64,000 bases of DNA, from NCBI GenBank assembly GCA_021847105.1, contig JAJZUT010000006.1, positions 124,001 to 188,000 on the forward strand, written 5' to 3'. The notes under the pieces are model-generated. The model ran no database searches. It saw only the letters and a list, made by a program, of their open reading frames with translations, and was not told where the DNA came from. A program made the position numbers and the translations under genes. This stretch comes from Pseudomonadota bacterium. Its GTDB lineage: Bacteria > Pseudomonadota > Gammaproteobacteria > Steroidobacterales > Steroidobacteraceae. Shown piece after piece: positions 12,814-52,103 of the stretch (positions are counted from its first letter, which is position 1; the number at the start of each line of letters is the position of its first letter).

Positions 12814-13773
12814 TCACGCCGCGGAGAGCTGGCGCTCGAGAGCGCCGAGCACGCGGTAGCAGGGCAGCACCTGCGCGACGCTCGCGTTCGGCTCGCGGCC
12901 TTCCCGGATCGCCGCGACGAATTCCCGATCCTGCAGCTCGATGCCGTTCATCGACACGTCGACCTTCGACACGTCGATCTTGTTCTCCTTGCCGTCGACC
13001 AGGTCATCGTACCGGGCGATGTACGTGCCGTGATCGCAGATGTAGCGGAAGAACGATCCGAGCGGCCCGTCATTGTTGAAGGACAACGACAGCGTGCACA
13101 GCGCGCCACTGGCGCTTTTCAGCTGGATGGACATGTCCATCGCGATACCGAGCTCGGGGTGGACCGGCCCCTGCATCGCATGGGCGGCGACCACTTCGCT
13201 GCCGCTCTGGTAGGCGAACAGATCGACGGTATGCGCCGCGTGATGCCAAAGCAAATGATCCGTCCAGGAGCGTGGCTGACCCAGGGCATTGATATTGCGG
13301 CGACGGAAAAAATAGGTCTGCACGTCCATCTGCTGCACGGCCAGCTCTCCGGCGCGCACTTTGTGGTGCACCCACTGATGACTGGGATTGAACCGCCGCG
13401 TATGTCCGACCATGGCCACCTTGCCGCTGGTACGGCTCACCCGCGCCAGCTCCTCGGCATCGGTCAGGGAGTCGGCCATCGGAATCTCGACCTGCACATG
13501 CTTGCCGGCCCGTAGGCAGTCGATCGCCTGCGCTGCGTGCATCTGCGTCGGCGTGCACAGAATCACCGCGTCCACCTCGGCGCGCCCCAGAACTTCATCG
13601 AGACTCGTCGTCGCCTGCGCGATCCCGTAGCGCTGCGCCACCTCCCGGGTCGGCTCTAGCGTCCGACCGACCAGCGCCACCACCTGCACGCCGGGGATGT
13701 TGCCGAGGGCATCGAGATGTTTGATGCCGAATGCGCCGGCACCGGCCAGCGCGATCTTCAGAGTGTCATTCAT
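12814..13773 (-). CDS. ligC: 4-Carboxy-2-hydroxymuconate-6-semialdehyde dehydrogenase (LigC/PmdC)
   Basis: 319 residues of the Gfo/Idh/MocA family: Rossmann GAGAFGIKH at residues 11-19, CTPTQMH, and the family motif GKHVQVEIPMADS. LigC oxidises 4-carboxy-2-hydroxymuconate-6-semialdehyde, the ring-cleavage product of protocatechuate, in its cyclic hemiacetal form to 2-pyrone-4,6-dicarboxylate with NAD(P)+. The length matches LigC of Sphingobium. It is the last gene of the lig operon, 31 bases after ligB, and is convergent with the TPR gene. Confidence 0.93.
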   Translation of the reverse strand: MNDTLKIALAGAGAFGIKHLDALGNIPGVQVVALVGRTLEPTREVAQRYGIAQATTSLDEVLGRAEVDAVILCTPTQMHAAQAIDCLRAGKHVQVEIPMADSLTDAEELARVSRTSGKVAMVGHTRRFNPSHQWVHHKVRAGELAVQQMDVQTYFFRRRNINALGQPRSWTDHLLWHHAAHTVDLFAYQSGSEVVAAHAMQGPVHPELGIAMDMSIQLKSASGALCTLSLSFNNDGPLGSFFRYICDHGTYIARYDDLVDGKENKIDVSKVDVSMNGIELQDREFVAAIREGREPNASVAQVLPCYRVLGALERQLSAA

Positions 13774-13804: not shown

Positions 13805-14644
13805 TCACCGGCTCTCGAGGATGATATGGCCGACCGCGGTCGAGGATGCCGGAATGTGGTAGAAACGATAGATCTCCTCGACCTTCGGCCCGAGCGCTCC
13901 GCGCATCACGAGCCACATCACCAGCTCGATCGCCTCAGCACCGGCCTCGCGCAGATACTCGATGGGCGGGATGCGCAGCAGCCGTTGCGGGTCCTGCGAC
14001 AGACCATCGAGAAAGGCCTTGTCAAAGACCGGATTGGTCAAGCCCGCGCGCGGCCCTTGAATCTGGTGGGACATCCCGCCCGTGCCGAAAATGACCACCT
14101 TGAGGTCCTCGTCCCAGCTCGCCACGGCTCTGCGGATCGCCTCCCCGAGCCGGTAGCAACGGTGTCCCGTCGGCGCCGGGTACTGGATCACGTTGACCGC
14201 CAGCGGGATGACGCGGCAGGGCCAATTCGGCGGTGAGCCGAACAGCAGCGTCAACGGCACCGTCAGGCCATGGTCCACCGGCATCTCGTTGACCACCGTC
14301 ATGTCGAACTCATCGAGCACCAGGGACTGCACCAGGTGCGCGGCGAGTTCCGGATAGCCCTGCACCGGCGGCACCGGTCGCGGCCCCCAACCCTCGTCGG
14401 CGATGGGAAATTGCGCCGCGCAACCGAGGCCGAAAGTCGGGATCATCTTGAAATCGAACGCATTGACATGGTCGTTGTAGACCATGATGACCACGTCGGG
14501 CCGCGTCTCGGCCATCCAGCGCCGCGAGGCTTCATAACCCTTGAACAGCGGCTGCCAGTACGGCTGCCCGCTCTTGCCGTTGTCCACGGCCGCACCGATC
14601 GCCGGGGTGTGCGACGTGCCGACTCCCGCAATGATCTGTGCCAT
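13805..14644 (-). CDS. ligB: Protocatechuate 4,5-dioxygenase, beta (catalytic) subunit
   Basis: 279 residues. The class III extradiol iron ligands are in place: His12 (GTSHTPAIG), His59 (YNDH) and the Glu of AIELVMW; the catalytic His lies in GTGGMSHQ. NEMPVDHG carries the second active-site His. With LigA it opens the protocatechuate ring between C4 and C5 to 4-carboxy-2-hydroxymuconate semialdehyde. The ATG at 14644 overlaps the ligA stop (TGATG), so translation is coupled; the frame to 14839 is an antisense-like extension through ligA. Confidence 0.95.
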   Translation of the reverse strand: MAQIIAGVGTSHTPAIGAAVDNGKSGQPYWQPLFKGYEASRRWMAETRPDVVIMVYNDHVNAFDFKMIPTFGLGCAAQFPIADEGWGPRPVPPVQGYPELAAHLVQSLVLDEFDMTVVNEMPVDHGLTVPLTLLFGSPPNWPCRVIPLAVNVIQYPAPTGHRCYRLGEAIRRAVASWDEDLKVVIFGTGGMSHQIQGPRAGLTNPVFDKAFLDGLSQDPQRLLRIPPIEYLREAGAEAIELVMWLVMRGALGPKVEEIYRFYHIPASSTAVGHIILESR

Positions 14645-15045
14645 CAGCGCTGCTCCGGCCGTTCGGACTTCGAGCGCCAGCCATCCGGCGAGCGGCCACC
14701 CTTGAGCATCATGTCGACGTACTCCTGCTCGGACATTCCGGTCATCTGCGCGGCCATGAACTGGTAGGACCGCCCGTCGGTGAAGGCGAGCTTGGCGAGC
14801 GCATACGCCACGCCGCCGAGTTCGAGCAACCGGTTCCAATCGCGCTGCAACACGGCCTCGCGCTGCGCGGCGGTCAGCTCGAACTTCGCCAGATACGCCT
14901 GCTGGTCGGCGAGGAACGCCTGGCGGTTCTCCGCCTTCATCAGCGTGTAGAGGAACTGATTGAGGTGATAGCCGCGGCGAGCCCGATCGGCGTCGAATAT
15001 CCAGGTGCCGGGAATATCATCGTAGGGCTTGTCGATCGATTTCAC
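14644..15045 (-). CDS. ligA: Protocatechuate 4,5-dioxygenase, alpha subunit
   Basis: 133 residues with the LigA helical fold motifs DDIPGTWIFD, GYHLNQFLYTLMKAENR, FTDGRSYQFMAAQMTGM and GGRSPDG. It forms the lid over the LigB active site. I place the start at the GTG at 15045 because it overlaps the ligI stop as GTGA and is preceded by GGAGGA four bases upstream; the frame's first start at 15060 is a TTG without a ribosome site. Confidence 0.92.
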   Translation of the reverse strand: MKSIDKPYDDIPGTWIFDADRARRGYHLNQFLYTLMKAENRQAFLADQQAYLAKFELTAAQREAVLQRDWNRLLELGGVAYALAKLAFTDGRSYQFMAAQMTGMSEQEYVDMMLKGGRSPDGWRSKSERPEQR

Positions 15046-15965
15046 GCTTCCTCCGGCCAATACAGCCTCATGGGATTGTCCACCAACAGTTTGCGCTGCA
15101 GCTCGACGGTGCGCGCAATGTGGGGGATGAAGTCGACCAGCAGCCCGTCATCGGGCATGTGGTCCTTGAGATTCGGATGCGGCCAGTCGGTGCCCCACAG
15201 CACGCGGTCCGGAAAATGCTCGACCAGATACCGGGCGAACGGCACCACGTCGCGGTAGGCAGCGCGCTCGCCGTTCAGTGCCGGCGGGCCACTCACACTC
15301 AGCCGCTCCGGACAGGACACCTTCGTCCAGATGCGCGGATGCTCGCTGAGCAACCTCACGAACAGGGCAAACTGCGGCCCCTCAAGCGGCTGCCTGACAT
15401 CGGGCCGACCCATGTGATCGACCACCACGTCGGTCGGCAGCGCCGTGAAAAAATCCCACAACTCGGGCAAATCGACCGCTTCGAAATACACCACGACGTG
15501 CCAGCCGAGCGGTGCGATGCGCGCAGCGATTTCGAGCAGTTCATCCCGGGGCGTGAAGTCCACCAGTCGCTTGAGGAAATTGAAACGCACGCCGCGCACC
15601 CCGGCGGCATGCAGCTCGTGCAGCTGCTGCTCGCTCACCTCTCGCCGGACGGTGGCGACCCCCCGCGCGCGCCCCCCGGAATGCAACAGTGCATCGACCA
15701 TGGCACGGTTGTCCGCACCGTGGCAGGTCGCCTGCACGATTACATTACGCGCGAACCCCAGGTGATCCCGCAGCGCAAAGAGCTGCTGCTTGCTCGCATC
15801 GCAGGGCGTGTACTTGCGCTGCGGCGCGTACGGAAACTGCGCTCCGGGCCCAAATACGTGGCAGTGGGCATCGACCGCCCCCTGCGGCAGCGTGAAGTGC
15901 GGCTTCGACGGATTGGCATACCAATCAAGCCATCCGGGTGTCTTGCTGAATCCCTCGGTACTCAT
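15042..15965 (-). CDS. ligI: 2-Pyrone-4,6-dicarboxylate hydrolase
   Basis: 307 residues, amidohydrolase superfamily (cog3618 branch). Motifs: VDAHCHVFG at the N-terminus, VQATCHG, RFNFLKR, VVVDHMGR and GTDWPHPN near the C-terminus, all as in LigI, which hydrolyses the lactone without a metal. It converts 2-pyrone-4,6-dicarboxylate to 4-oxalomesaconate/4-carboxy-2-hydroxymuconate. The ATG at 15965 begins MSTEGFSKTPGW; it follows the preceding dehydrogenase gene by 10 bases. Confidence 0.95.
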   Translation of the reverse strand: MSTEGFSKTPGWLDWYANPSKPHFTLPQGAVDAHCHVFGPGAQFPYAPQRKYTPCDASKQQLFALRDHLGFARNVIVQATCHGADNRAMVDALLHSGGRARGVATVRREVSEQQLHELHAAGVRGVRFNFLKRLVDFTPRDELLEIAARIAPLGWHVVVYFEAVDLPELWDFFTALPTDVVVDHMGRPDVRQPLEGPQFALFVRLLSEHPRIWTKVSCPERLSVSGPPALNGERAAYRDVVPFARYLVEHFPDRVLWGTDWPHPNLKDHMPDDGLLVDFIPHIARTVELQRKLLVDNPMRLYWPEEA

Positions 15966-15975
15966 CGGCGATGCC

Positions 15976-16935
15976 TCATGTGGGGGTCCCTTTGCGTTCT
16001 CTCGCGCGCACGAACGCAAGAATACGATCCGCCTCGGTGCGCCAATCAGGGCTACGCGCAAAATCGGGCGAGCCGCGCACACCGAACACCCCGGCATCAG
16101 CGAGCGCTGCCATCCACGCCTGCCGCTCTGCCGTACCGGTGGCAGACCAGGCATCGAGGCCCGCTTCCTCGACGGTGCGCGCCACCTCACGCATCTCCTC
16201 GGCGCGGCGCCGGCCGTGCTCGATGACCCGCTGCATGAAATAGCTCGCCTGGCGCTGCCAGTCGATGCCGGGGAAGGTTTCCGCGAGCGACTGCAGCACC
16301 GCGTCCTCGACGCCGTAGGCGCGCGCAGCCGTCAGACTCTCTATGATCATGGCCTCGAGCCCCTTGATCATCACGCTGCGGCACATCTTGCTCGCCGAGG
16401 CCAGACCGAGTTCACCCGCCAGCACTCGGGCGGAAAAGCCCAGCGCTGCGAGCAGGGGCTGCAATTCGCCCGCGTGCGCCCCGCCGAGCAACATCGGCAC
16501 TTTGATCCGGTGCGGCGGCACGGAGGTCATCACGGCGCTCTCGACGTAGCGGCCACCGGCCTGCTCGATCAGCGCAGCGGCGCGCCGCTTCGAGCCGGGC
16601 GATGCGGAATTCAGATCGAGGAACCACTGACCGGGCTGCACCGCGGCCGCACACCCGCGTGCCGCCTCGACCGTCTGACTGGCGGTGACCGCTGAGATCA
16701 CCAGATCGCTCTGCGCGGCCAACTCGGCGTGCGAGGCAACCAAACTCACCCCGTGCGCTGTGGCGTGCGCGCGCAACGGCCCCTCCTCGGCCGTGCCCAG
16801 CTTACGGTCGTAGGCGGCGCAGTCCCTGACGCCGCGCGCGCGCAGATCCTCGGCGAGAATGCGCCCGACTTCGCCGTACCCGAGCAGACCGAACCGCCAG
16901 CGTATCGGGTCGTGGGTCGTCTCCTGCGTGCGCAT
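15976..16935 (-). CDS. NAD(P)-binding DUF1932 dehydrogenase-like protein within the lig operon
   Basis: 319 residues. The N-terminal Rossmann domain reads FGLLGYGEVGRILAEDL, with a 6-phosphogluconate-dehydrogenase-like layout (LVISAVTASQT, FLDLNSASPGSKR). The C-terminal half with ASKMCRSVMIKGLEAMIIES matches the DUF1932 helical domain, whose Lys sits where beta-hydroxyacid dehydrogenases keep their catalytic Lys. It lies tightly between ligK (3 bases) and ligI (10 bases), so it is surely co-transcribed with the protocatechuate pathway, but the core pathway has no step that needs it. It might reduce or oxidise a side intermediate. Confidence 0.8.
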   Translation of the reverse strand: MRTQETTHDPIRWRFGLLGYGEVGRILAEDLRARGVRDCAAYDRKLGTAEEGPLRAHATAHGVSLVASHAELAAQSDLVISAVTASQTVEAARGCAAAVQPGQWFLDLNSASPGSKRRAAALIEQAGGRYVESAVMTSVPPHRIKVPMLLGGAHAGELQPLLAALGFSARVLAGELGLASASKMCRSVMIKGLEAMIIESLTAARAYGVEDAVLQSLAETFPGIDWQRQASYFMQRVIEHGRRRAEEMREVARTVEEAGLDAWSATGTAERQAWMAALADAGVFGVRGSPDFARSPDWRTEADRILAFVRARERKGTPT

Positions 16936-16938
16936 CGC

Positions 16939-17634
16939 TCAGTTCACGTACTTCAGGCCGAGTTTCGCGAGCGGCTCACGCATCTTGTACATGTCGAGAC
17001 CGAGCACTCCGGCGGCAAGCTGCTCGCGCTTGCCCGCCTCATTGGCCTCGCGCGCCGCGGCAGCATCGGCGACCTGCTGTGCCAGCGCTGCGGGCACGAT
17101 CACCACGCCGTCATCGTCCGCGAGCACGACGTCACCCGGATTGACCAGCGCACCAGCACAGATCACCGGCACGTTCACCGAACCAAGTGTCGCTTTGACC
17201 GTTCCCTTGGCGCTGATGGCCCGGCTGAAGACCGGAAACTTCATCTCTGACAGCTCGCGCACGTCACGCACGCCACCATCGATCACCAGCCCCAACGCAC
17301 CACGGGATCGAAACGAGGTAGCAAGCAGCTCGCCGAAGAATCCGTCTTCGCTGTCGGTCGTGCAGCCCGCGAGCACGACATCACCGGGGCGTATCTGCTC
17401 GGCGGCGACGTGCAGCATCCAATTGTCCCCGGGTTGCAGCAGCACCGTGACTGCAGTGCCGCACAGGCGCGCACCGGGGTAGATCGGGCGCATGTAGGGC
17501 TTGAGGAGTCCGACGCGACCCATCGCCTCGTGCACGGTTGCCACGCTCGAGGTCGCGAGCTTCGCTACCGCGGTCGGCTCGGCCCGCTCGATGTTCACCT
17601 TAACGATGCCCAGATTGTTCAACGCTGTGCTCAT
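16939..17634 (-). CDS. ligK: 4-Carboxy-4-hydroxy-2-oxoadipate aldolase (RraA-like fold)
   Basis: 231 residues. The RraA-like aldolase motifs are present: [47 protein letters not shown] and [10 protein letters not shown], with the Asp/Arg of GGVRD as metal and substrate ligands. LigK/PmdF/GalC cleaves 4-carboxy-4-hydroxy-2-oxoadipate to pyruvate and oxaloacetate, the last step, and usually also decarboxylates oxaloacetate. The ATG at 17634 (MSTALNNLG) gives the standard length; the frame to 17718 runs into the gap after ligJ. Confidence 0.94.
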
Positions 17635-17662: not shown

Positions 17663-18688
17663 CTATCGGGCGCGCGCCTTGAGCGCCGCGTCAAGTCGCG
17701 GATAGACGCGCCGGGCATTGCCCTCGTAAATCATCTGTCGCTGCGGCGGGTCGAGCGCCGCTGCCTCGACGTAACGCTTGGTGTCGTCGTAGTGATGTCC
17801 CGTGCGCGGGTCGATACCGCGCACTGCTCCGATCATCTCCGAGGCGAACAGGATGTTCTCGATCGGCATAACCCGCGTGAGCAGATCGATTCCCGGTTGA
17901 TGGTAGACGCAGGTGTCGAAGAAGATGTTCTTCAGCAGGTGCTCCTCGAGCGGCGGCTTGTCAAGTCCCTGCGCCAGACCGCGGAAGCGCCCCCAATGGT
18001 ATGGCACGGCACCGCCGCCGTGCGGGATGACGAACTTCAGGGTCGGGAAGTCCTTGAACAGATCGCCGGTCAGGCACTGCATGAACGCCGTCGTATCGGC
18101 ATTGAGGTAATGTGCGCCAGTGGTATGGAAGCACGGATTGCAGCTGGTGCTGACGTGCACCATCGCCGGGATGTCGTATTCGACCATCCGCTCGTAGATC
18201 GGATACCACCAGCGGTCGGTAAGCGGCGGCTCTCTCCAATGTCCGCCCGAGGGGTCCGGATTGAGATTGATGGCGACGAAGCCGTACTCCTTGACGCAGC
18301 GGTCGAGTTCCGCGATGCAGCTGGCCGGCTCGACACCCGGAGACTGCGGCAGCATGGCCGCGCCGATGAATTGATCCGGGAACAGTCGCGCGACGCGCAT
18401 GCACAGCTCGTTGCAGATCGCTGCCCAGGTCGCACTGGTGTTGAAATCCCCGATGTGATGCGCCATGAAACTGGCACGCGGGGAAAAAATGGTCAGATCC
18501 GAGCCCCGCTCGCGCATGAATTTCAGCTGATTGGTCTCGATGCTCTCGCGCAACTCGTCGTCGCTGATCTTCAGCTCCGCGGCCTTTGGGCCGAGTTGCG
18601 GCGTCGACACGTTCGCGACCTGCCGCTTACGCCACTCCTCGAGGGCCTTCGGTGCAGTGGTGTAATGGCCATGGCAATCGATGATCAT
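17663..18688 (-). CDS. ligJ: 4-Oxalomesaconate hydratase
   Basis: 341 residues, the exact family length. The amidohydrolase-superfamily metal motif DCHGHYTT (His6, His8) opens the protein; later blocks are [50 protein letters not shown] and the [14 protein letters not shown] segment. LigJ hydrates 4-oxalomesaconate (enol form) to 4-carboxy-4-hydroxy-2-oxoadipate in a zinc-dependent reaction. It starts 38 bases downstream of the ligU stop. Confidence 0.95.
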
Positions 18689-18726: not shown

Positions 18727-19839
18727 TCAGCGGGCCGGCTCACCGGGCCGCCAGAGCGAAGCTGGCACCATGACTTCCCCGCGCATCAACAGCCGCGCTG
18801 TGCGCAGCAGCGCCGCCCGCTTCACGACGGGCGGGTCGCCAGGGGCCGTTTCCAGCTCGACGCTGAACTCCCCGCTCGGGTGTTCCACCGACAGAGTCCG
18901 CAACTCGCCCGCAGGCACCGCGGCAATCCCATCGGCGATCGAGCCGGGCAGCACGCACGCGGTCGCAACCGTAACCGCGGCGAGCACGCCGATTGCCTCG
19001 TGGCACACGTGCGGAATGAAACAGCGGGTCAGGATGCTGCCATTGGCAGCAGGCGGGGCGATCAGGCACATCTTCGGATAGGTCTTGGCGCTGACATCAC
19101 CCAGGCCCATCAGCAGTCCGCAGGCGAGCCGCAGCTTCTCCAGACGCGTCTTCAAGGCGCTATCGCCGTTGAGCTCAGCGGCACTCTCGCGTCCGCTGCG
19201 GCCAAGATCTCCGGCGCGCATGAGCACCATCGGCATGCCGTTGTCGATGCAGGTCACCTCGATGGGCGTCTCCCCGGGGACACTCACCACATCGCGTACC
19301 CGCCCCGTCGGCAGCAGTCCGGAGCAGACCGAGCCGGCCGTGTCGAGAAAGTTGATCTTGATCGGTGCAGCTGTGCCGGGCACGCCATCGATACGCGCCT
19401 CGCCCTCGTAGGCCACCTGCCCGCCGGGGGTCTGCACGGTGATGTCGCACAGCATGTCGGTATTGCGCGTCAGCACCCGGAAGGTGCTGGACTCGCCCTG
19501 GGCGCGAACCAGGCCGGTCTCGAGCGCAAACGGCACCACGGCAGCGAGCATGTTGCCGCAATTGGGCGTGGTGTCGACCTGGGGCTTATCCACCACCACC
19601 TGCGCAAAGAGGAATTCCAGATCCACGCCCGGTTGCGTGCCGAGTCGCACGATACCGACTTTGCTCGTGAGCGGATGGGCTCCGCCCATGCCGTCGATCT
19701 GCCGCCGGTCGGGCGAGCCCATGACCGCGAGCAGCACGCGATCTCGCAGTGCGACCTCGCCAGGCAGGTCGCGCTCATTGAAAAACGGTCCGCGCGAGGT
19801 ACCGCCACGCATGAACAGGCACGGAATGGGTGTCTGCAT
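18727..19839 (-). CDS. ligU: 4-Oxalomesaconate tautomerase (PrpF family, LigU/GalD/PmdU)
   Basis: 370 residues. The PrpF-like isomerase begins PIPCLFMRGGTSRGPFF, almost the GalD N-terminus, and carries DGMGGAHPLTSKVG and TTPNCGNMLAAVVPFALE, where the Cys is the catalytic residue of the diaminopimelate-epimerase fold. GalD/LigU moves the double bond of 4-oxalomesaconate to give the isomer used by LigJ. ATG at 19839 chosen; the frame upstream to 19932 is not conserved. First gene of the lig operon, with 170 bases to purU. Confidence 0.93.
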   Translation of the reverse strand: MQTPIPCLFMRGGTSRGPFFNERDLPGEVALRDRVLLAVMGSPDRRQIDGMGGAHPLTSKVGIVRLGTQPGVDLEFLFAQVVVDKPQVDTTPNCGNMLAAVVPFALETGLVRAQGESSTFRVLTRNTDMLCDITVQTPGGQVAYEGEARIDGVPGTAAPIKINFLDTAGSVCSGLLPTGRVRDVVSVPGETPIEVTCIDNGMPMVLMRAGDLGRSGRESAAELNGDSALKTRLEKLRLACGLLMGLGDVSAKTYPKMCLIAPPAANGSILTRCFIPHVCHEAIGVLAAVTVATACVLPGSIADGIAAVPAGELRTLSVEHPSGEFSVELETAPGDPPVVKRAALLRTARLLMRGEVMVPASLWRPGEPAR

Positions 19840-20009: not shown

Positions 20010-20966
20010 TTATCGCAGCACCACTGTCTTGCTGCCATCGCGAAAGACACGTCGCTCGGCATGCCACGTGATCGCGCGGTTGAGCACCACGGTCTCGAGT
20101 TCACTGCCGATGACGGCGAGATCATCCGCCGACTGGGTGTGATCGATCCGTTCGACGCCCTGCTCGATGATCGGGCCCTCGTCGAGATCGGCGGTCACGT
20201 AGTGCGCGGTGGCGCCGATGAGCTTGACGCCGCGGGCGTGTGCCTGATGGTAGGCTTTCGCGCCCTTGAAACCCGGCAGGAACGAGTGATGGATGTTGAT
20301 CGCCCGTCCGTCGAAGAACCGGCAAGCCTGCGCCGAGAGGATCTGCATGTAGCGAGCGAGCACAAGCAGCTCCGCGTCCACCTGTTCGAACAGCGCCATC
20401 ATCTGCGCCTCCTGCTCGGCCTTGCGTCCATCGCTGATGGGCAGGTGGTGATACGGCACGCCATGCCATTCGGCCAACCGGCGCATGTCCGGGTGGTTCG
20501 AGACCACCGCAACCACCTCGATCGGCAGCGTGCCGGTACTCCAGCGATGCAGAATGCTGTTCAGGCAGTGCCCCTGATGCGAAACCGCGAGCAGAACGCG
20601 GCAGCGGTGGCGCGCGGCGTGCAAGCGCCAGTGCATGCGAAACGGCGCGCCAACCCGCTCGGCGAAGCGCCGTTCGAGCTCCTGCATCGCAGGCATGCCC
20701 CGACCATCGTCGTGGAAGACCGTGCGCATGAACGAAGTGCCAGTATTCGGGTCATCGTAGTGCTGCGCCTCGCTGATGGTCGCATGGTGTTCGGCCAGAA
20801 ATCCGGCAATACCGGCCACCACCCCGGTGACATCAGGGCAGGTGGTGGTGAGAATGTAATCCGCGGGCACGCTCGCCGGCCGCTGACCTAGCCGATGCGC
20901 GGCGTTTGTGCGCTCGCCAGTGGCGGCGGAATCGGCCCTGGTCGGCTCGGATCCTGTCGAGCTCAT
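20010..20966 (-). CDS. purU: Formyltetrahydrofolate deformylase PurU
   Basis: 318 residues: an N-terminal ACT domain (YILTTTCPDVTGVVAGIAGF) and a C-terminal formyltransferase-like hydrolase domain with CLNSILHRW, VVSNHPDMR, ARYMQILS and NIHHSFLPGFKGAKAYHQA, which holds the Asn/His catalytic residues. PurU hydrolyses 10-formyl-THF to formate and THF. The ATG at 20966 overlaps the metF stop (ATGA). A 45-residue non-conserved N-terminal extension precedes the ACT domain. Context: with MetF it drains one-carbon units from O-demethylation. Confidence 0.94.
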   Translation of the reverse strand: MSSTGSEPTRADSAATGERTNAAHRLGQRPASVPADYILTTTCPDVTGVVAGIAGFLAEHHATISEAQHYDDPNTGTSFMRTVFHDDGRGMPAMQELERRFAERVGAPFRMHWRLHAARHRCRVLLAVSHQGHCLNSILHRWSTGTLPIEVVAVVSNHPDMRRLAEWHGVPYHHLPISDGRKAEQEAQMMALFEQVDAELLVLARYMQILSAQACRFFDGRAINIHHSFLPGFKGAKAYHQAHARGVKLIGATAHYVTADLDEGPIIEQGVERIDHTQSADDLAVIGSELETVVLNRAITWHAERRVFRDGSKTVVLR

Positions 20967-21916
20967 GGGACTACGGTGAACTTCGTCTGGTCCGCGCGCA
21001 GCTCGAACCGCTCGTCCATGACCGCCCGCAGCCACGCGGCTGTCGCCAGGACACCGCCGAATGAATACACATGAGGCGCGCGCACCCGCAAGCGCGGATC
21101 GGCCGCGCGTGCCCGCACGAGCCCGAGCAGCATCTCATCCGTGCCGACGGGCGGGCGCACCAGTTGCGCAACCGCATTACTGCCCTTGGTGAGTGAGCGT
21201 GCGGCGACCCCGACACCGCAATGCATGGCAAACTTGATCAGCTTCGCGATGGGCGTCGGCCCGGCAATGCCAACATGCACCGGTAGCGAGATCCCGGCAG
21301 CCGTCATCGCATGATCCCAGGCGATCAACCGCTCGATGTCGAAACTGAATTGCGTAACGATGTGCACCGCGATGCCGCTGCGGTGCGCGAATTGCTGCTT
21401 TTCTTGCAGCGCGGCGCGCAACTCCTCGGTTCCGACCGCCGGGTGACCGTCCGGGTGACCCGCGACGCCGATGCTCTGCAGACCGGCGCAGTGCAGCTCA
21501 CCGGTTTCGAGCAGCTGCAGCGTACTGGCATAGGGCCCGAGCGGCGGATCGAGATCTCCGGCAACAAGCAGCACCTGCTCGATGCCGTGCTCGCGCAGGC
21601 TGCGCAGCGAGTCCTTGAAGGCCTGCTCGCTCGGCATGCGGCGCGCAACGAGATGCGGTGAGGCGCGCAGACCAAGCGCCTGCACCTTGGCCGCCACGCG
21701 CACGACGTCCTGCAGTGACGACTTCGGCGTATGCGCCACGTACACCACCATTCCCGCCGGCAGCAGCGCCGCGATCTGCGGCAACTGCGACTCATCCAGG
21801 GTAGAGATCTCCGTCGAGGCCGCGCGTGCAAACGCACTGATGGCCTGCTTCAGCTCGAGCGCGCCGACCTCATTGCCTGGCGCCGCAGCCGTTTCACTCG
21901 AGTGATGTTGATTCAT
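20963..21916 (-). CDS. metF: Methylenetetrahydrofolate reductase-like protein (MetF)
   Basis: 317 residues of the MTHFR TIM-barrel family: PAGMVVYVAHTPKSSL, LGLRASPHLVARR, VLLVAGDLDPPLG, SIGVAGHPDGHP and IVTQFSFDIERL. It is longer and more divergent than biosynthetic MetF, resembling the catabolic MetF that accompanies ligM in Sphingobium, where it oxidises 5-methyl-THF to 5,10-methylene-THF. ATG at 21916 (MNQHHSS) follows GGAAGGCGG. Couples with purU through ATGA; both belong to the demethylation C1 route by inference. Confidence 0.88.
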   Translation of the reverse strand: MNQHHSSETAAAPGNEVGALELKQAISAFARAASTEISTLDESQLPQIAALLPAGMVVYVAHTPKSSLQDVVRVAAKVQALGLRASPHLVARRMPSEQAFKDSLRSLREHGIEQVLLVAGDLDPPLGPYASTLQLLETGELHCAGLQSIGVAGHPDGHPAVGTEELRAALQEKQQFAHRSGIAVHIVTQFSFDIERLIAWDHAMTAAGISLPVHVGIAGPTPIAKLIKFAMHCGVGVAARSLTKGSNAVAQLVRPPVGTDEMLLGLVRARAADPRLRVRAPHVYSFGGVLATAAWLRAVMDERFELRADQTKFTVVP

Positions 21917-22008
21917 ACCGCCGCCTTCCGCGCCACGCCGATCTCGGGCGTCGGGGCAAAACAATAGCGGGTCTGCGCGCGTGTCGAAAATCCAAAGTTG
22001 CGATGCCT

Positions 22009-31402: not shown

Positions 31403-32827
<1,425 letters not shown>

Positions 32828-39706: not shown

Positions 39707-41476
39707 GTGGCCGGTACCGAACGGGCGCAGGCGGCATACCCCTATACCATCCAGTTCGGCCCCGAGGACGATGGGCGTTTCTGGTTCTACAATTCGATGC
39801 ACTTCCCGGAGCCGATGTCGTGCTTCGATATGGTGACGGCTGAGGCGGCTTACTGCGCACTCGGCGCGGCCAATACGCGCGTGCATTGCCTGCCGACCAC
39901 CCTCGGCATCGATCACAGGATCATCAATGGCCGCGTCTACATCGGCGGCAATGCGGTCACCGATCCGGCCGAGATCGCCCGGCGCACCGAGCAGTTCCAG
40001 AAGCGCGCCTTTTACTACTACGAGAACTGGGAGCGGCTGTACGGCTCGTGGAAGGAGAAGATGCTCGCGCTGATCCGTTCTGCCGAGGCGCTGCCCAGAC
40101 CGGCACTGCCGGAATTCGAGCCGCTCGAGAACGTGCATGCCGGTCGCGGCCTCGCGGCGAACCACACGCTGCTCGAGACCTACCAGAAAACGCTCGAGGG
40201 CTACTTCCGAATGTGGCACCACCACTTCGAATTTCTGCTCCTCGGTTACGGCGCCTATCTCACCTTCTTCGCCTTCTGCAAGCAGGCATTTCCGGAGATC
40301 TCCGATCAGACCATCGCCCGCATGGTGGCGGGCATCGACGCGGAGATCTTCCGCCCCGACGAGGAGCTGCGCCGCCTCGCGCGCCGCGCCGTCGAGCTGC
40401 GGGTGGACGGCCAGTTCCAGGATGGGCTGTCCGCCACCACCATCATCGCCTCACTCGAGCAGGCCGGCCCGGCGGGCGAGGAGTGGCTGCGGGAGCTCGC
40501 CACTTCGCGCGATCCATGGTTCAACATCAACGTCGGCGACGGATTTTATCATTATCACCGCTCCTGGAACGATGACCTGTCGATGCCGTTTGCCGGACTG
40601 CCCGGCTACATCGCCCGCGTCAAGGCCGGCGAGTCACTCGAGCGCCCATTCGAGAAGCTGCAGCAGGAGCGGCGCGAACTGATTGCCGCCTACCGCGAGC
40701 TGTTGAGCTCCGATGAGGAACGGATCGCGTACGACCAGATGATTGAGCTCGCCCATCGCGTCTTTCCGTACGTTGAGGGCCACAAGTTCTACTGCGAGCA
40801 CTGGTACACCAACCTGTTCTTCAACAAGGTGCGAGAATTCGGCGCGCTGCTCGCCGAACATGGATTCTTTGCGGACGCCGAGGATGTCTTTCATCTCACT
40901 CATTACGAGCTCGAGGCCGCGATCATCGACCTGATGAACGCCTGGTCGACCGGCTCGAAGCCGCGCGGCCCCGCGCATTGGCCGCCGCTCGTGGCGGAAC
41001 GGCGCGCGGCGCTCGAGGTCTGGGCTCAACACCCCACCCCGCCGGCGCTGGGACCGGTACCTGAGATCATCGACGATCCGGCCATCGTGATGCTCTGGGG
41101 CATTACCCGCGAGAGCCTCGACACCTGGCTCAACGCCGACGGCAAGGACACCAGTAATGAAATTCGTGGCTTTGCCGCCTCGAACGGTGTCGTTGAGGGT
41201 CCCGCGCGAGTGATCAAGTCGGTCGATGACATCGGCCGGATCCAGTCGGGGGACATTCTGGTCTGCCAGATCACCAACCCCACCTGGGCGCCGATCTTCC
41301 AGAAGATTGCGGGCGCCGTGTCCGATATCGGCGGTTCAATGAGCCATGCGGCGATCGTCGCGCGCGAATTCGGCCTGCCGGCCGTCGTCGGCACGGGCAG
41401 CGCGACGAGCCGCATCAAGGACGGCCAGCGAGTCCGCGTCGATGGCGGGCGCGGCGTCGTTACGGTTCTCGGCTGA
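39707..41476 (+). CDS. PEP-synthase-like phosphotransferase, mobile (swivelling His) subunit; phenylphosphate-synthase/hydroxyarylketone-kinase type
   Basis: At least 589 residues. The C-terminal 100 residues are a PEP-utilising mobile domain with the phosphorylated histidine in GGSMSHAAIVAREFGLPAVV (His547). The first 480 residues (FWFYNSMHFPEP, FYYYENWERLYGSWKEKML, WHHHFEFLLLGYGAYLTFF) are helical and resemble the substrate half of phenylphosphate synthase PpsA. With the next gene it should transfer the beta-phosphate of ATP to a phenolic hydroxyl. The conventional start is GTG at 39707, but upstream codons encode FPLPSSVKVV, which looks like the family N-terminus, so translation may begin at ATT 39653 (GGGAG seven bases before). 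Confidence 0.85.
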   Translation: MAGTERAQAAYPYTIQFGPEDDGRFWFYNSMHFPEPMSCFDMVTAEAAYCALGAANTRVHCLPTTLGIDHRIINGRVYIGGNAVTDPAEIARRTEQFQKRAFYYYENWERLYGSWKEKMLALIRSAEALPRPALPEFEPLENVHAGRGLAANHTLLETYQKTLEGYFRMWHHHFEFLLLGYGAYLTFFAFCKQAFPEISDQTIARMVAGIDAEIFRPDEELRRLARRAVELRVDGQFQDGLSATTIIASLEQAGPAGEEWLRELATSRDPWFNINVGDGFYHYHRSWNDDLSMPFAGLPGYIARVKAGESLERPFEKLQQERRELIAAYRELLSSDEERIAYDQMIELAHRVFPYVEGHKFYCEHWYTNLFFNKVREFGALLAEHGFFADAEDVFHLTHYELEAAIIDLMNAWSTGSKPRGPAHWPPLVAERRAALEVWAQHPTPPALGPVPEIIDDPAIVMLWGITRESLDTWLNADGKDTSNEIRGFAASNGVVEGPARVIKSVDDIGRIQSGDILVCQITNPTWAPIFQKIAGAVSDIGGSMSHAAIVAREFGLPAVVGTGSATSRIKDGQRVRVDGGRGVVTVLG

Positions 41477-48868: not shown

Positions 48869-49816
48869 CTATCGAGAACTGATATGGCTGTGCGGCTGGC
48901 GGACGGCCGCCTGCGCCAGCTCGCGCAGCATGCGCGTCGCGTGCCGCAGCAGCGGCGTCGTCGGCTTGTGCGCCGAACTCGCCAGGCAGAGCTTGCTGAT
49001 CAGCATGGGCTGCTCGATCGGTCGCACGCTGAAGGCCTGGGGTGCGCCTGAGGCGTGCACCGCCCCGCGACTGAGCACGGCATAGCCATAACCGGCACGC
49101 ACCATGTCGAGAATGGCCGGGATTCCCGAGACTTCCCAGTCGATGCGCAACGTCACGCCGGACAGCACTGCCTGCGCCTCGACCCGCCGCCGAATGGCTT
49201 GCGTGTGATCGGGAATCACGAGCGGGTACTGAGGCAGCTCGGCGAAGGGTACGGGCAGCTCCAGACGGGCCGCCGCGCGCCCACCCCGTCGCTGCCGATG
49301 TCGCGCCGGGCCGATCAGGCACAGCGGTTCATCGAGAATCGGTTGAATGTCGATCGAAGCCTGCGACTCGGGATTGTGCACCAGGGCAAGATCGACCCGT
49401 CCGGTGGCTATCCACTCCAAGAGGTGTGTCGAGAGGCCCTCCACAATCACCAGCCGCGCCTTGGCTAGACTCGCGCGGAATCCCGCGACCAGCGAGAGCG
49501 TCAGGATGCGCCCGAGGCTCGGCGGCAAGCCAATGACGACGCGGCCCGCCGGTTCCTCCCGCCCCTCCTCCAGATCAGCGCGCGCCTGCTGCACCAGATG
49601 CAGGATGGCCGTGGCCCGCTCGACGAGGTGCTTGCCCGCCTCGGTGAGCACCACCCCGCGGCCGGTGCGCTGCAGCAGCGCGCAGCGCAGGTCGGTCTCG
49701 AGCAGCCGGATCTGGCGGCTGAGCGCTGGTTGCGCCACATCGAGCACCAGGGCTGCTCGGCTGAAGCTGCCGAGTTCGGCGACCCGGACGAAATACTCCA
49801 GCTGCTTGAGGTTCAT
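48869..49816 (-). CDS. LysR-family regulator (second of a coupled pair)
   Basis: 315 residues. HTH: MNLKQLEYFVRVAELGSFSR, ALVLDVAQPALSRQIRLLET, with LLQRTGRGVVLTEAGKHLVE as wing. Effector domain from about residue 92 (VVIGLPPSLGRILTLSLVAG). It resembles the NAC/CatR-like group. Its ATG overlaps the stop of another LysR gene (ATGA), an unusual translational coupling of two LysR proteins that suggests joint control, perhaps of the ligAB2 genes upstream. Confidence 0.92.
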   Translation of the reverse strand: MNLKQLEYFVRVAELGSFSRAALVLDVAQPALSRQIRLLETDLRCALLQRTGRGVVLTEAGKHLVERATAILHLVQQARADLEEGREEPAGRVVIGLPPSLGRILTLSLVAGFRASLAKARLVIVEGLSTHLLEWIATGRVDLALVHNPESQASIDIQPILDEPLCLIGPARHRQRRGGRAAARLELPVPFAELPQYPLVIPDHTQAIRRRVEAQAVLSGVTLRIDWEVSGIPAILDMVRAGYGYAVLSRGAVHASGAPQAFSVRPIEQPMLISKLCLASSAHKPTTPLLRHATRMLRELAQAAVRQPHSHISSR

Positions 49817-50742
49817 GGCGCTATTCCGGCGAGCAGCCCATTGGCCACTTCCTCAAGCTCGGCGCGCAGCCACACGTGCAGCGGATCGTCCTGATGGCGG
49901 CGATGCCATACCAGGTACATCGAGACCTCCGGGGCCGAGAACGGCAACGGCGCGGTGCCGAAGCCGCGCATGCAGCCGAAGCGCAACAGCGAGGGAACGC
50001 TCGCAAGCAGATCGGTGCCGCGCAGAAACGCGGCGACACCAGCGAAGTCACTCACCGCCACACCGATCCGCCGGGTGAGACCGCGCGAGGTGAGCTGATC
50101 GTCGAAGACCAGCCGGCGACCGTCTTCGTACACCACGGTGACATGGCGGCCCGCGAGGTACTCCTCGAGCGTCCGTGGTGCAGCGCGCTGCGCCGGGTCG
50201 AAGAAGCAGACGTAGCGATCGACCAGCAAGCGCTTCTGGACGATGTCCATTCCCTCGGGGGGACGGGGCGTGACAATCAGATCGCAGCGCCCCTCGCGCA
50301 GCAGCTCCGCGGTCGGCGCTCGCGAGGGGATCACGGTGAGCCGCAACAGCTTCAGTCGCTTCGCAAGACGCTGCTGAAACGCCGGCAGCAGCAGGTCGCG
50401 CTGAAAATCGTTCGCCGCGACCGTGAGCACGAGTTCCGTGTCCTGCGGCACGAACCGCGGACCGCGCGCCAGCCGCTCCATATCCTCGAGCAACCGCCGG
50501 GCCGGCCCCGCCAGCGCCTCGGCGCGCGCCGTCGCGGCAATGCCGCGGCCCGATTTGACGAACAGCGAATCGCCGAGGACTGAGCGCAGACGGTTCAAGG
50601 CATGACTGACCGCCGACTGGGTCAAGCCGAGCCGCTCAGCCGCAGCGGTCACCGAGCCGGTTTCGAGCACGGCGAGAAACGTGCGCAACATGCGCCCGTC
50701 GATATCGAGCAGGTGGGGTAATGAGGATTGAAGCTCGCCCAT
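49813..50742 (-). CDS. LysR-family regulator (first of a coupled pair)
   Basis: 309 residues. HTH: MLRTFLAVLETGSVTAAAER, LGLTQSAVSHALNRLRSVLG, then DSLFVKSGRGIAATARAEAL. Effector domain begins ELVLTVAANDFQRDLLLPAF, of the PcaQ/GcvA-NahR-like variety. ATG at 50742 (MGELQSS) chosen; the longer frame to 50790 is not conserved. It lies 161 bases downstream of ligB2, on the same strand. Confidence 0.92.
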   Translation of the reverse strand: MGELQSSLPHLLDIDGRMLRTFLAVLETGSVTAAAERLGLTQSAVSHALNRLRSVLGDSLFVKSGRGIAATARAEALAGPARRLLEDMERLARGPRFVPQDTELVLTVAANDFQRDLLLPAFQQRLAKRLKLLRLTVIPSRAPTAELLREGRCDLIVTPRPPEGMDIVQKRLLVDRYVCFFDPAQRAAPRTLEEYLAGRHVTVVYEDGRRLVFDDQLTSRGLTRRIGVAVSDFAGVAAFLRGTDLLASVPSLLRFGCMRGFGTAPLPFSAPEVSMYLVWHRRHQDDPLHVWLRAELEEVANGLLAGIAP

Positions 50743-50903
50743 GGGTCGCGCCTGCCCTGCGCCCTCGGACAGCCTGTGCGCCCCCGGCAAGCCCGTTCAT
50801 TGTGACATACGTCGCCGAGCGGCGCTCGCTCCCCTCGCGCCGCACCGCCGGCCCGGGGAGCGTGCGCGCCGGAGGGGCTTGGCGCACACGCTCCCCGTAC
50901 CGC

Positions 50904-51749
50904 TCAGGCAGCCATGCGCTCCATCAACATCAGACCCGCAGCGGTGTTGGAAATCGGGATGTGGTAGTTGGAGTGGACCGTTTTCGCCGCCCCGCCGAGC
51001 GCCGCGCGCGCAGCCAGCCACATCAGCAATTCGATGCCCTGGGTTCCGGTCTGCTCGACCAGTTCGCCGATCGAATAGCGAGTAGCCCACAGCGGGTCGG
51101 TCGGAAGCTTTTCCATGAATTCCAGATCGAACTTCTTGTTGATGAAGCCGGCGCGCTGGCCGTCGAGCTGGTGACTCAAACCGCCGGTGCCGATCACCAC
51201 CACGCGCTTGTCGGCGTCGTAGGATTGAATTGCGCGGCCGACGGCCTCGCCGAGCTTGAAGCAGCGCGCGGCCGACGGCAACGGATGTTGCACGGTGTTG
51301 ATACAGACCGGCACGATGCTGACCGGCCAGGCGCCGCCAGTCGGCCACAGCAGGGCCATCGGGATCGTGCAGGCGTGATCGATCAGCATCTCTTGGCAAG
51401 TGGTGACGTCGAACTCCTCGCCGACCAGCTTCTCGATGAGATGCCAGGAAAAATGCGGGTCGCCCGCCACGGGCGGCAGAGTCGGAATGCCCCACCCCTC
51501 GTCCGCATTGGTGTACTGGGGTGCGGCACCGACCGCAAACGTCGGCATCTTATCGAGGAAGAAATTGAGCCCGTGGTCATTGTAGAAGATGACCGCGACG
51601 TCCGGCCGCACCTTGCCGAGCCAGGCATGCACCGGCGCGAAGCCGTCGAAGAACGGCTTCCAGTACGGGTCGGTGCGCAGGTTGCGGGCGATCGCACCGC
51701 CGATGGCAGGCACGTGCGAGGTGGTGATTGCTCCGACGATCTTGGCCAT
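50904..51749 (-). CDS. Second LigB-type extradiol dioxygenase, catalytic subunit
   Basis: 281 residues, class III extradiol fold. Fe ligands His12 (TTSHVPAIGG), His59 (YNDH) and Glu in GIELLMW, plus catalytic His in GTGGLSHQLDG and LIDHACTIP, are all retained, so it should be active. It differs from the pathway LigB at substrate-near positions (YNDHGLNFF against YNDHVNAFD), and is only moderately similar. Candidate substrates are gallate, 3-O-methylgallate or another protocatechuate analogue. The gene follows ligA2 after 3 bases. Confidence 0.9.
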   Translation of the reverse strand: MAKIVGAITTSHVPAIGGAIARNLRTDPYWKPFFDGFAPVHAWLGKVRPDVAVIFYNDHGLNFFLDKMPTFAVGAAPQYTNADEGWGIPTLPPVAGDPHFSWHLIEKLVGEEFDVTTCQEMLIDHACTIPMALLWPTGGAWPVSIVPVCINTVQHPLPSAARCFKLGEAVGRAIQSYDADKRVVVIGTGGLSHQLDGQRAGFINKKFDLEFMEKLPTDPLWATRYSIGELVEQTGTQGIELLMWLAARAALGGAAKTVHSNYHIPISNTAAGLMLMERMAA

Positions 51750-51752
51750 GGC

Positions 51753-52103
51753 TTACTTCCCCGCGGCCGTCAATTTGGCCTTAAATTGATCTTTGGACAT
51801 ACCGGTTTGCTGGGCACCAAGGTCCTGCACGTCGAGCCCGAAGATGCCGGCGAGCTTGGCCAGGTAGTAGACGTTGCCACCGGCAGCGATCAGCTCGAGA
51901 ACGTTGCGGTGCCGCACCGCTTCGCGCTGCTCGGCACTGAGGCCATAGCGTGCGCAATATGCATCTTCGTTACGTTTGAATTCCTCCCGATTGGCCGCCG
52001 AGTTGAATGAATAACACATCTTGTTCAACGCATAACCCTTGATGGCCTGCGCCCCGTCGAACAGGGTCGTGCCAGGGATCTGTCGGGACGTGCCGGCCTG
52101 CAT
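51753..52103 (-). CDS. Second LigA-type dioxygenase alpha subunit
   Basis: 116 residues with the LigA fold: IPGTTLFDGAQAIKGYALNK then MCYSFNSAANREEFKRNEDA, REAVRHRNVLELIAAGGNVY, QQTGMSKDQFKAK. It is shorter than the pathway LigA at the N-terminus and lacks the C-terminal GGRSP tail. It pairs with the LigB-type gene 3 bases downstream. ATG at 52103. Confidence 0.88.
   Translation of the reverse strand: MQAGTSRQIPGTTLFDGAQAIKGYALNKMCYSFNSAANREEFKRNEDAYCARYGLSAEQREAVRHRNVLELIAAGGNVYYLAKLAGIFGLDVQDLGAQQTGMSKDQFKAKLTAAGK

Follow-up and report, generated by a model that had tools for sequence, protein, structure and literature searches.

A DUF1932 oxidoreductase gene recurs as an accessory member of protocatechuate 4,5-cleavage and gallate-type gene clusters

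The window is a 64,000-nucleotide stretch of a Steroidobacteraceae genome (contig JAJZUT010000006.1). On its minus strand, from 19839 down to 12814, lies an operon in the order U-J-K-X-I-A-B-C. X is the gene under study, and the letters stand for the following features.

18727-19839, minus strand: U, 4-oxalomesaconate tautomerase, LigU/PmdU type (NF033377, 525.7 bits, cut-off 440)
17663-18688, minus strand: J, KCH/OMA hydratase, LigJ/PmdE type, amidohydrolase fold (PF04909)
16939-17634, minus strand: K, CHA aldolase (TIGR02798, 399.7 bits, cut-off 304.5)
15976-16935, minus strand: X, DUF1932 oxidoreductase with a predicted beta-hydroxyacid-dehydrogenase fold (319 aa, ATG start)
15042-15965, minus strand: I, 2-pyrone-4,6-dicarboxylate hydrolase, LigI/PmdD type (PF04909)
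14644-15045, minus strand: A, protocatechuate 4,5-dioxygenase alpha subunit (TIGR02792, 163.8 bits, cut-off 108.6)
13805-14644, minus strand: B, protocatechuate 4,5-dioxygenase beta subunit (PF02900, 271.9 bits; NF009903, 457.3, cut-off 317)
12814-13773, minus strand: C, CHMS dehydrogenase, LigC/PmdC type (PF19858, 320.6 bits, and PF01408; no passing equivalog)

The LigK-, LigU- and LigA-type genes all exceed curated cut-offs, and together with LigB they identify a protocatechuate 4,5-cleavage operon. LigJ, LigI and LigC have no curated NCBIfam equivalog over its cut-off (J matches no NCBIfam model at all), and the names of J, I and C rest on homology and position: J is 64% identical to a gene of locus L152 annotated as 4-oxalomesaconate hydratase, and I shares 81% identity with the amidohydrolase that occupies this slot in an Acidovorax carolinensis cluster. 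Two starts are our own choices, namely the GTG of A and the ATG of U ending at 19839, in an open frame that extends to 19932.

Leaving X aside, the operon's seven genes are of the same kinds as those of the lig (Sphingobium SYK-6), pmd (Comamonas) and fld (Sphingomonas LB126) systems. Unlike those systems, the operon has a dehydrogenase gene between the aldolase and lactonase genes and, because the gap between U and J is only 38 bases, no transporter gene between these two. The Comamonas order, which we and the preliminary description alike take to be pmdU-(K)-E-F-D-A-B-C, equals U-J-K-(X)-I-A-B-C apart from pmdK and X. Our own comparison of the X-bearing operon rests on X-less clusters from other genomes (L129-L139). 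The preliminary description had a DUF1932 gene lying inside a pmd-ordered lig operon from which pmdK is missing, and the gene order, the coordinates and the U-J gap all agree with this account. X is separated by 3 bases from the stop of K (16939) and by 10 bases from the ATG of I (15965). Its pN/pS was 0.31-0.40 in six pairs with relatives (pN 0.18-0.21, pS 0.52-0.65), and in all six pairs the constraint on X was looser than that on J, K and I. X is a real gene under purifying selection and no chance open reading frame.

The window holds several other genes of note. A LigM-type vanillate/3-O-methylgallate O-demethylase gene lies at 31424-32827 on the plus strand (NF047885, 742 bits, cut-off 580); with a MetF-like gene (20963-21919, minus) and a PurU-like formyl transferase gene with an ACT domain (20010-20963, minus), it makes up a folate-dependent demethylation set. 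A second LigB/LigA pair (50904-52103 and 48869-50790, both minus) is 43% and 42% identical to the first, and adjoins two LysR-like genes, one of them 48% identical to the LysR-like gene that flanks the lig cluster of locus L094. At 39707-41476 (plus) is a gene for a 589-aa protein whose sole recognised part is a PEP-utilising mobile domain (87.2 bits).

X belongs to DUF1932 (PF09130, 68.2 bits, cut-off 25) and also matches NAD_binding_2 (PF03446, 35 bits, cut-off 21). It falls far below the NCBIfam cut-offs for 3-hydroxyisobutyrate dehydrogenase proper (TIGR01692, 39 of 291.6) and tartronate semialdehyde reductase proper (TIGR01505, 41.7 of 340.75). An AlphaFold2 model built from 29 sequences (pLDDT 88.0, pTM 0.80) predicts a strand-helix N-terminal part followed by helices from residue 178 on, which places X in the beta-hydroxyacid-dehydrogenase fold, with a Rossmann domain and an all-helical C-terminal domain. 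The model superposes on 3qsg with a Z of 31.1 (rmsd 2.0 over 283 residues), on 4ezb with 30.1 and on 1i36 with 26.1; these three solved relatives, which span the DUF1932 region and were deposited without function, are also the best sequence matches (E 6e-50 to 1e-25). Against beta-hydroxyacid dehydrogenases Z is about 21-23, with 3-hydroxyisobutyrate dehydrogenase, tartronate semialdehyde reductase and 2-hydroxymethylglutarate dehydrogenase, which share the fold of X, at about 21.6-22.8.

The glycine-rich motif G19 Y20 G21 E22 V23 G24 (GxGxxG) is invariant in all 29 sequences of alignment A1. Conservation elsewhere was read from 50 rows, 43 pathway-linked and 7 unlinked; most of the close loci, four further Bradyrhizobium rows, rows shorter than 231 aa and L143 were excluded. 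Twelve residues (D43, K183, R186, S187, K191, E194, R236, H240, R243, R244, E247 and E250) are invariant in 43/43 linked sequences. K183 aligns with the lysine of the HIBADH motif AAKICNN, the position of the catalytic lysine. Beta-hydroxyacid dehydrogenases usually carry an asparagine four residues after this lysine; given the alignment, the corresponding residue in X is a serine, S187, preceded by R186, each in 43/43, and X is in this respect unlike the 3-hydroxyisobutyrate dehydrogenase group. An aspartate after strand 2 generally marks NAD(H) preference, and Asp43 in this position suggests that X would use NAD(H). The many invariant basic residues, presumed to line the pocket, would suit a substrate with several carboxylates. 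As nearly all of the 7 unlinked relatives have the same conserved residues, the set gives no specific pointer to a CHA-type substrate.

To see how often X recurs, we used two samples. A contig scan returned 382 stretches encoding X relatives, and reading was confined to the best-scoring 80, so that this sample is biased to close relatives. Within these best 80 of 382 loci, 64 have K and 65 a hydratase gene; 24 are LigJ-type clusters, mostly of the order (U)-J-K-X-I-A-B-C and including Thiomonas, Lautropia, Rhizobacter, Rhodopseudomonas, Derxia and Rhodoferax, 48 contain a further gene, P (mainly Bradyrhizobium; see below), and 8 have neither P nor a LigJ-type cluster. A fairer sample is a set of 398 genomes drawn evenly from the phylum. 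With a threshold of E<=1e-30, and with at most five first-look candidates scored per genome, by which distant X could be missed, X was found in 45 of these 398, and its surroundings were read in all 45 (the window and 44 fetched loci). K lies within the roughly 15 kb read around X in 37/45, our own included, or 38/45 if L143 is counted, where X adjoins a weak, 36% identical RraA-like gene that we scored as K-negative. The chance of finding a given gene in 15 kb of a 4-5 Mb genome should be well under 1%. K is present in 36 of the 44 fetched loci, and each of these 36 also has LigJ or GalB; 25 of the 36 have a tautomerase gene. A LigI-like gene (at least 40% identity) is absent from the stretch in 12/36, an upper limit, as are all counts of absent neighbours here, several loci ending at contig ends. 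A second count of these four figures (36, 36, 25 and 12) gave identical values.

Starting from LigI gave the same association. LigI (at least 56% identity) was found in 33 of the 398 genomes, 22 of which have X; with our own genome excluded and kinship ignored, X is in 21/32 LigI genomes and 23/365 others (Fisher p 3e-15). In the window's own genus, searched both ways in 37 genomes, X occurs in 9/11 with LigI (at least 68%) and in 1/26 without; the two X-less LigI genomes are G028 and G031, in which LigI begins no more than 260 bases from a contig end. Three loci of this genus (L002, L003 and L007) have a second X, 46-49% identical, in the order U-X-J-I, and K is absent from the short stretch. 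In a tree of 71 rows, which omits rows shorter than 231 aa, five of the Bradyrhizobium rows and the majority of the 80 close loci, the lig- and gal-linked X are spread over several clades (quick method, midpoint root, several long branches). We had looked for a single clade of lig-linked X; with this scatter, the tree does not point to one origin of the link. Fusions of X were likewise considered and dropped; the long open frames around some X matches are taken, from gene layout alone, for GC-rich read-through.

The preliminary description had X inserted into a pmd-ordered lig operon, and named as its first refuting outcome a neighbourhood survey without recurrent association. That outcome did not occur: J-K-X-I-A-B-C recurs in alpha- and betaproteobacteria, and X is found in gallate-type clusters as well. 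A one-off insertion into a Comamonas-type operon is not supported by this, "inserted" is the wrong picture, and X is rather a part that keeps recurring and is absent from certain lineages. The description's further statement that the pathway can do without such an enzyme apparently holds, since 11/33 LigI genomes gave no X match at E<=1e-30 (up to five candidates scored per genome), and X is for that reason accessory. The X-less clusters L129-L139 all contain LigI, LigJ and K; in L131 and L133 the space between K and I is occupied, as judged by eye, by one and two Bug-type receptor-like genes, respectively. X is a recurrent, accessory member of a well-studied pathway and no odd insertion.

The company that X keeps in annotated clusters of other genomes bears on where it acts. 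On an annotated Acidovorax carolinensis plasmid X lies between ligK and an amidohydrolase gene, and on an Azospirillum lipoferum plasmid directly after ligK, where the annotation shows no further pathway gene next to it; just before that ligK-X pair (L148:8043-8186) we noted an unannotated tautomerase-like stretch, 73% identical over about 48 aa. In Sphingobium TomTYG65, X is between fldY and fldW, and in Roseomonas two TTT receptor genes, an amidohydrolase gene and X follow one another. Gallate clusters bypass PDC. X relatives lie in several of these gal clusters (galB-galC-galD), either adjoining the tautomerase gene or elsewhere in the neighbourhood: in Pantoea At-9b galB-galC-galD is followed by X, with 8 bases shared between X and the tautomerase gene, in Pseudomonas oryzihabitans the X of the gallate region sits behind a dicarboxylate symporter gene, and on Rhizobium and Agrobacterium plasmids it is found by tautomerase, aldolase, dioxygenase and PIG-L genes. 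No PDC hydrolase is annotated in these gal clusters, and GalB or a PIG-L gene replaces LigJ.

X accompanies K and a hydratase both in protocatechuate clusters and in LigI-free clusters of the gallate type; that hydratase is either LigJ or GalB, two proteins of unrelated fold. The part common to these contexts is OMA -> KCH -> CHA -> pyruvate + oxaloacetate, and X therefore most likely acts there, at the OMA, KCH or CHA steps, rather than in ring cleavage, the LigC step or PDC hydrolysis, as judged by gene neighbourhood. A part in PDC hydrolysis had been suggested by the adjacency of X and LigI, and the 12/36 clusters with X and K that lack a LigI-like gene speak against this as a general role. 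Ring cleavage and the LigC step were dropped on the same count and on the Azospirillum ligK-X pair.

The Bradyrhizobium loci have a layout of their own. A typical locus comprises a TetR-like gene, one or two LigI-like hydrolase genes (42-47% identity), a GalB-like PIG-L protein gene, K (63-68%), P and X, sometimes with a dicarboxylate symporter gene. The set of GalB-like gene, K, P and X without a ring-cleavage gene in the stretches read makes up 40 of the best 80 of 382 loci, and 39 of these 40 also have a LigI-like gene. Shorter arrangements occur as TetR-P-X (L025) and TetR-X (L029). P, between K and X, encodes 289 aa and has no NCBIfam match and no family match over cut-off, a phosphonate-binding match reaching 19.5 of 27; judged by eye, it may be a 4,5-dihydroxyphthalate-decarboxylase-like protein. 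Conceivably, these loci lead into the CHA pool by a route of their own. Ring-free clusters such as L010:1513-7921, with LigI-like hydrolases, a dicarboxylate symporter, the GalB-like protein, CHA aldolase, P and X, possibly represent an unrecognised catabolic route.

In 8 of the 45 X genomes K is not near X. The X relatives of L111 and L141 lie near tricarballylate genes (TcuA, 675 and 652 bits, cut-off 369), and in L141 the DUF1932 gene is next to both TcuA and TcuB (404 bits, cut-off 246.6; L141:4646-7200). An isopropylmalate/isocitrate dehydrogenase-like gene is also found near the DUF1932 gene and TcuA of L111 (L111:7010-10540). The X relative of L142 adjoins a 3-oxo-tetronate 4-phosphate decarboxylase gene (322 bits, cut-off 250), a neighbour that favours a sugar acid as the substrate of that branch, and in L091 X is next to a Bug-like receptor gene. 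The genes read around X in L103, L104 and L125 gave no functional clue. The X relative of L103 (G415 contig 2) has one TAG inside the matched frame and is possibly a decaying copy.

Transport genes were sought within 200 bases of X at 140 loci with six queries, of which three were for Bug, two for dct and one for TRAP, ABC and MFS types lying outside this set. Bug receptors were found in 9/140 and dct symporters in 2/140, and 129/140 gave no match to the six queries, in loci that are partly redundant and in some cases cut by contig ends. The order Bug (TTT receptor)-X-LigI occurs in L044 and L070. ABC transporter genes stand directly before X in Agrobacterium and, by eye, also in L096. RND efflux genes are near X in two of eight annotated plasmid loci, on the same strand in Azospirillum and on the opposite strand in P. 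oryzihabitans; the other six have none annotated beside X. Uptake genes are recurrent and minor neighbours of X, and export may occur as well.

In the literature searched, one paper describes a gene that is likely to be an X relative. In Novosphingobium aromaticivorans, SARO_RS14280, annotated as an NAD(P)-dependent oxidoreductase and with no known role, heads the LigR-activated ligJA1B1C operon, according to the available portion of PMC12710314. Loci with a similar layout (L117-L123, L152) hold in this slot an X relative, about 40-44% identical to X and placed beside ligJ rather than between K and I. SARO_RS14280, linked to X by slot and annotation, is its probable positional counterpart. Thus the slot has already been noticed in Novosphingobium, and the literature searched, as far as its text was available, gives neither a function nor a link to gallate or tricarballylate genes. 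Judged from titles and the opening lines of abstracts, nothing else was recognised as describing X, and subscription papers may hold a function. The available portions of PMC6888825, PMC12314914, PMC13253662, PMC8431788, PMC10866074, PMC12607616 and PMC12997858 mention no gene likely to be an X relative; that of PMC12710314 alone does so. Searches for DUF1932 returned only unrelated papers, those for SLG_12530 and R9J51_00490 none, and those for Saro_2815/SARO_RS14280 only the LigR paper (PMC12710314), within the titles and abstract openings available. Hara reportedly described in 2003 an 'orf1' between ligK and ligI of SYK-6. We dropped the idea that X is this gene: the SYK-6 operon is ligKUI in the available text of PMC6888825, so the gene between ligK and ligI would, by order, be ligU. 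In the table rows available from PMC12997858, SYK-6 ligJ is SLG_12520 and ligR is SLG_12540, with no entry for SLG_12530, and the Novosphingobium ligI and ligJ tags are reversed relative to the corresponding part of PMC12710314. Gene names from the earlier cluster work are given in a figure legend of PMC8431788.

X is probably a real, overlooked helper of the protocatechuate pathway, accessory in kind. OMA, KCH and CHA each have seven carbons, three carboxylates and a 2-oxo group, and CHA is homocitrate with an added keto group (2-oxo-homocitrate). DUF1932 genes lie mostly beside the CHA aldolase and in a few cases beside tricarballylate genes, and so fit a dehydrogenase acting on the 2-hydroxy/2-oxo group of tricarboxylates. 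We tentatively favour, at somewhat less than even confidence, an accessory NAD(H)-linked dehydrogenase of the lower protocatechuate 4,5- and gallate pathways that salvages 2-hydroxy C7 tricarboxylates. The gene itself, its predicted fold, its conserved residues and its association with aldolase, hydratase and often tautomerase genes are what the data show; cofactor, substrate, direction and salvage role are what we infer. X would act in the lower half, from OMA through KCH and CHA to pyruvate and oxaloacetate, with Lys183 as the likely acid/base, and would most likely interconvert the 2-oxo and 2-hydroxy groups of CHA or of KCH/OMA. Its main task in vivo would be to re-oxidise 2-hydroxy side products, formed by reduction or derived from lactones, which the hydratase and aldolase would then finish. 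Being accessory and patchily kept, X fits a salvage of wrongly reduced intermediates. Counting against this reading are the 11/33 LigI genomes without X, the 8/45 X genomes without K nearby, the sugar-acid neighbour in L142, the residues shared with unlinked relatives, and a tree that does not point to one origin of the pathway link. Broader and more doubtful is the idea of an unrecognised step at the oxalomesaconate/CHA node, an NAD-linked dehydrogenase of the 2-hydroxy/2-oxo-homocitrate type common to protocatechuate 4,5-, gallate and ring-free Bradyrhizobium clusters, which would form a salvage or entry branch off current maps and provide DUF1932 with its first function.

Other readings of the same neighbourhoods have to be weighed against salvage. 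X might instead oxidise a hydroxy-tricarboxylate, imported or set free from a lactone by a LigI-like hydrolase, into the CHA pool, a route apart from ring cleavage that ends at the same aldolase. The uptake genes by X, whether Bug (L044, L070), TTT (Roseomonas), symporter (P. oryzihabitans) or ABC (Agrobacterium, L096), agree with such a route, as do the 9 Bug and 2 dct neighbours and the 40 ring-free Bradyrhizobium loci. We nevertheless think it unlikely: the great majority of the 140 loci matched none of the six queries near X, Bug genes are in any case abundant in Bradyrhizobium and Burkholderiales, and the Bradyrhizobium loci, because of their shared ancestry, count as few events. An NADH-linked reduction of an aldolase product, oxaloacetate to malate or else pyruvate, would pull CHA cleavage and dispose of reducing power. 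X adjoins K in many clusters, and oxaloacetate, as a beta-oxo acid, belongs to the fold's substrate class; ordinary malate dehydrogenase, however, does the same in most bacteria, and relatives beside tricarballylate genes have no obvious need of such a reaction, which leaves this proposal quite unlikely.

It is also rather improbable that X detoxifies, by reducing OMA or KCH to an excreted product when the aldolase or hydratase is overloaded. Its accessory, patchy distribution would suit that task, the superfamily does contain reductive members such as glyoxylate and semialdehyde reductases, and RND efflux genes lie close to X in the two plasmid loci named above; Asp43, on the other hand, points by the general rule to NAD(H), more usual for catabolic oxidation, and the remaining six loci have no efflux gene annotated beside X. 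That X is a passenger with no role in the pathway would explain the X-less clusters and its faster evolution compared with J, K and I, yet X is under constraint and recurs in several clades with two different types of hydratase, and the available text of PMC12710314 places the Novosphingobium gene of the corresponding slot under the pathway regulator LigR. We regard this last reading as scarcely credible.

The protocatechuate 4,5-pathway is regarded as complete, and it is being engineered to turn lignin into more valuable products such as PDC. An enzyme without an assigned role that is conserved, lies with the pathway genes and, in Novosphingobium, is co-regulated with them hints that the CHA node has a side reaction, a repair step or an entry route that is still missing from the pathway. 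X could matter for yield and by-products. It would also offer a first testable class of substrates for DUF1932, a family in which the three solved structures nearest to X have no function assigned.
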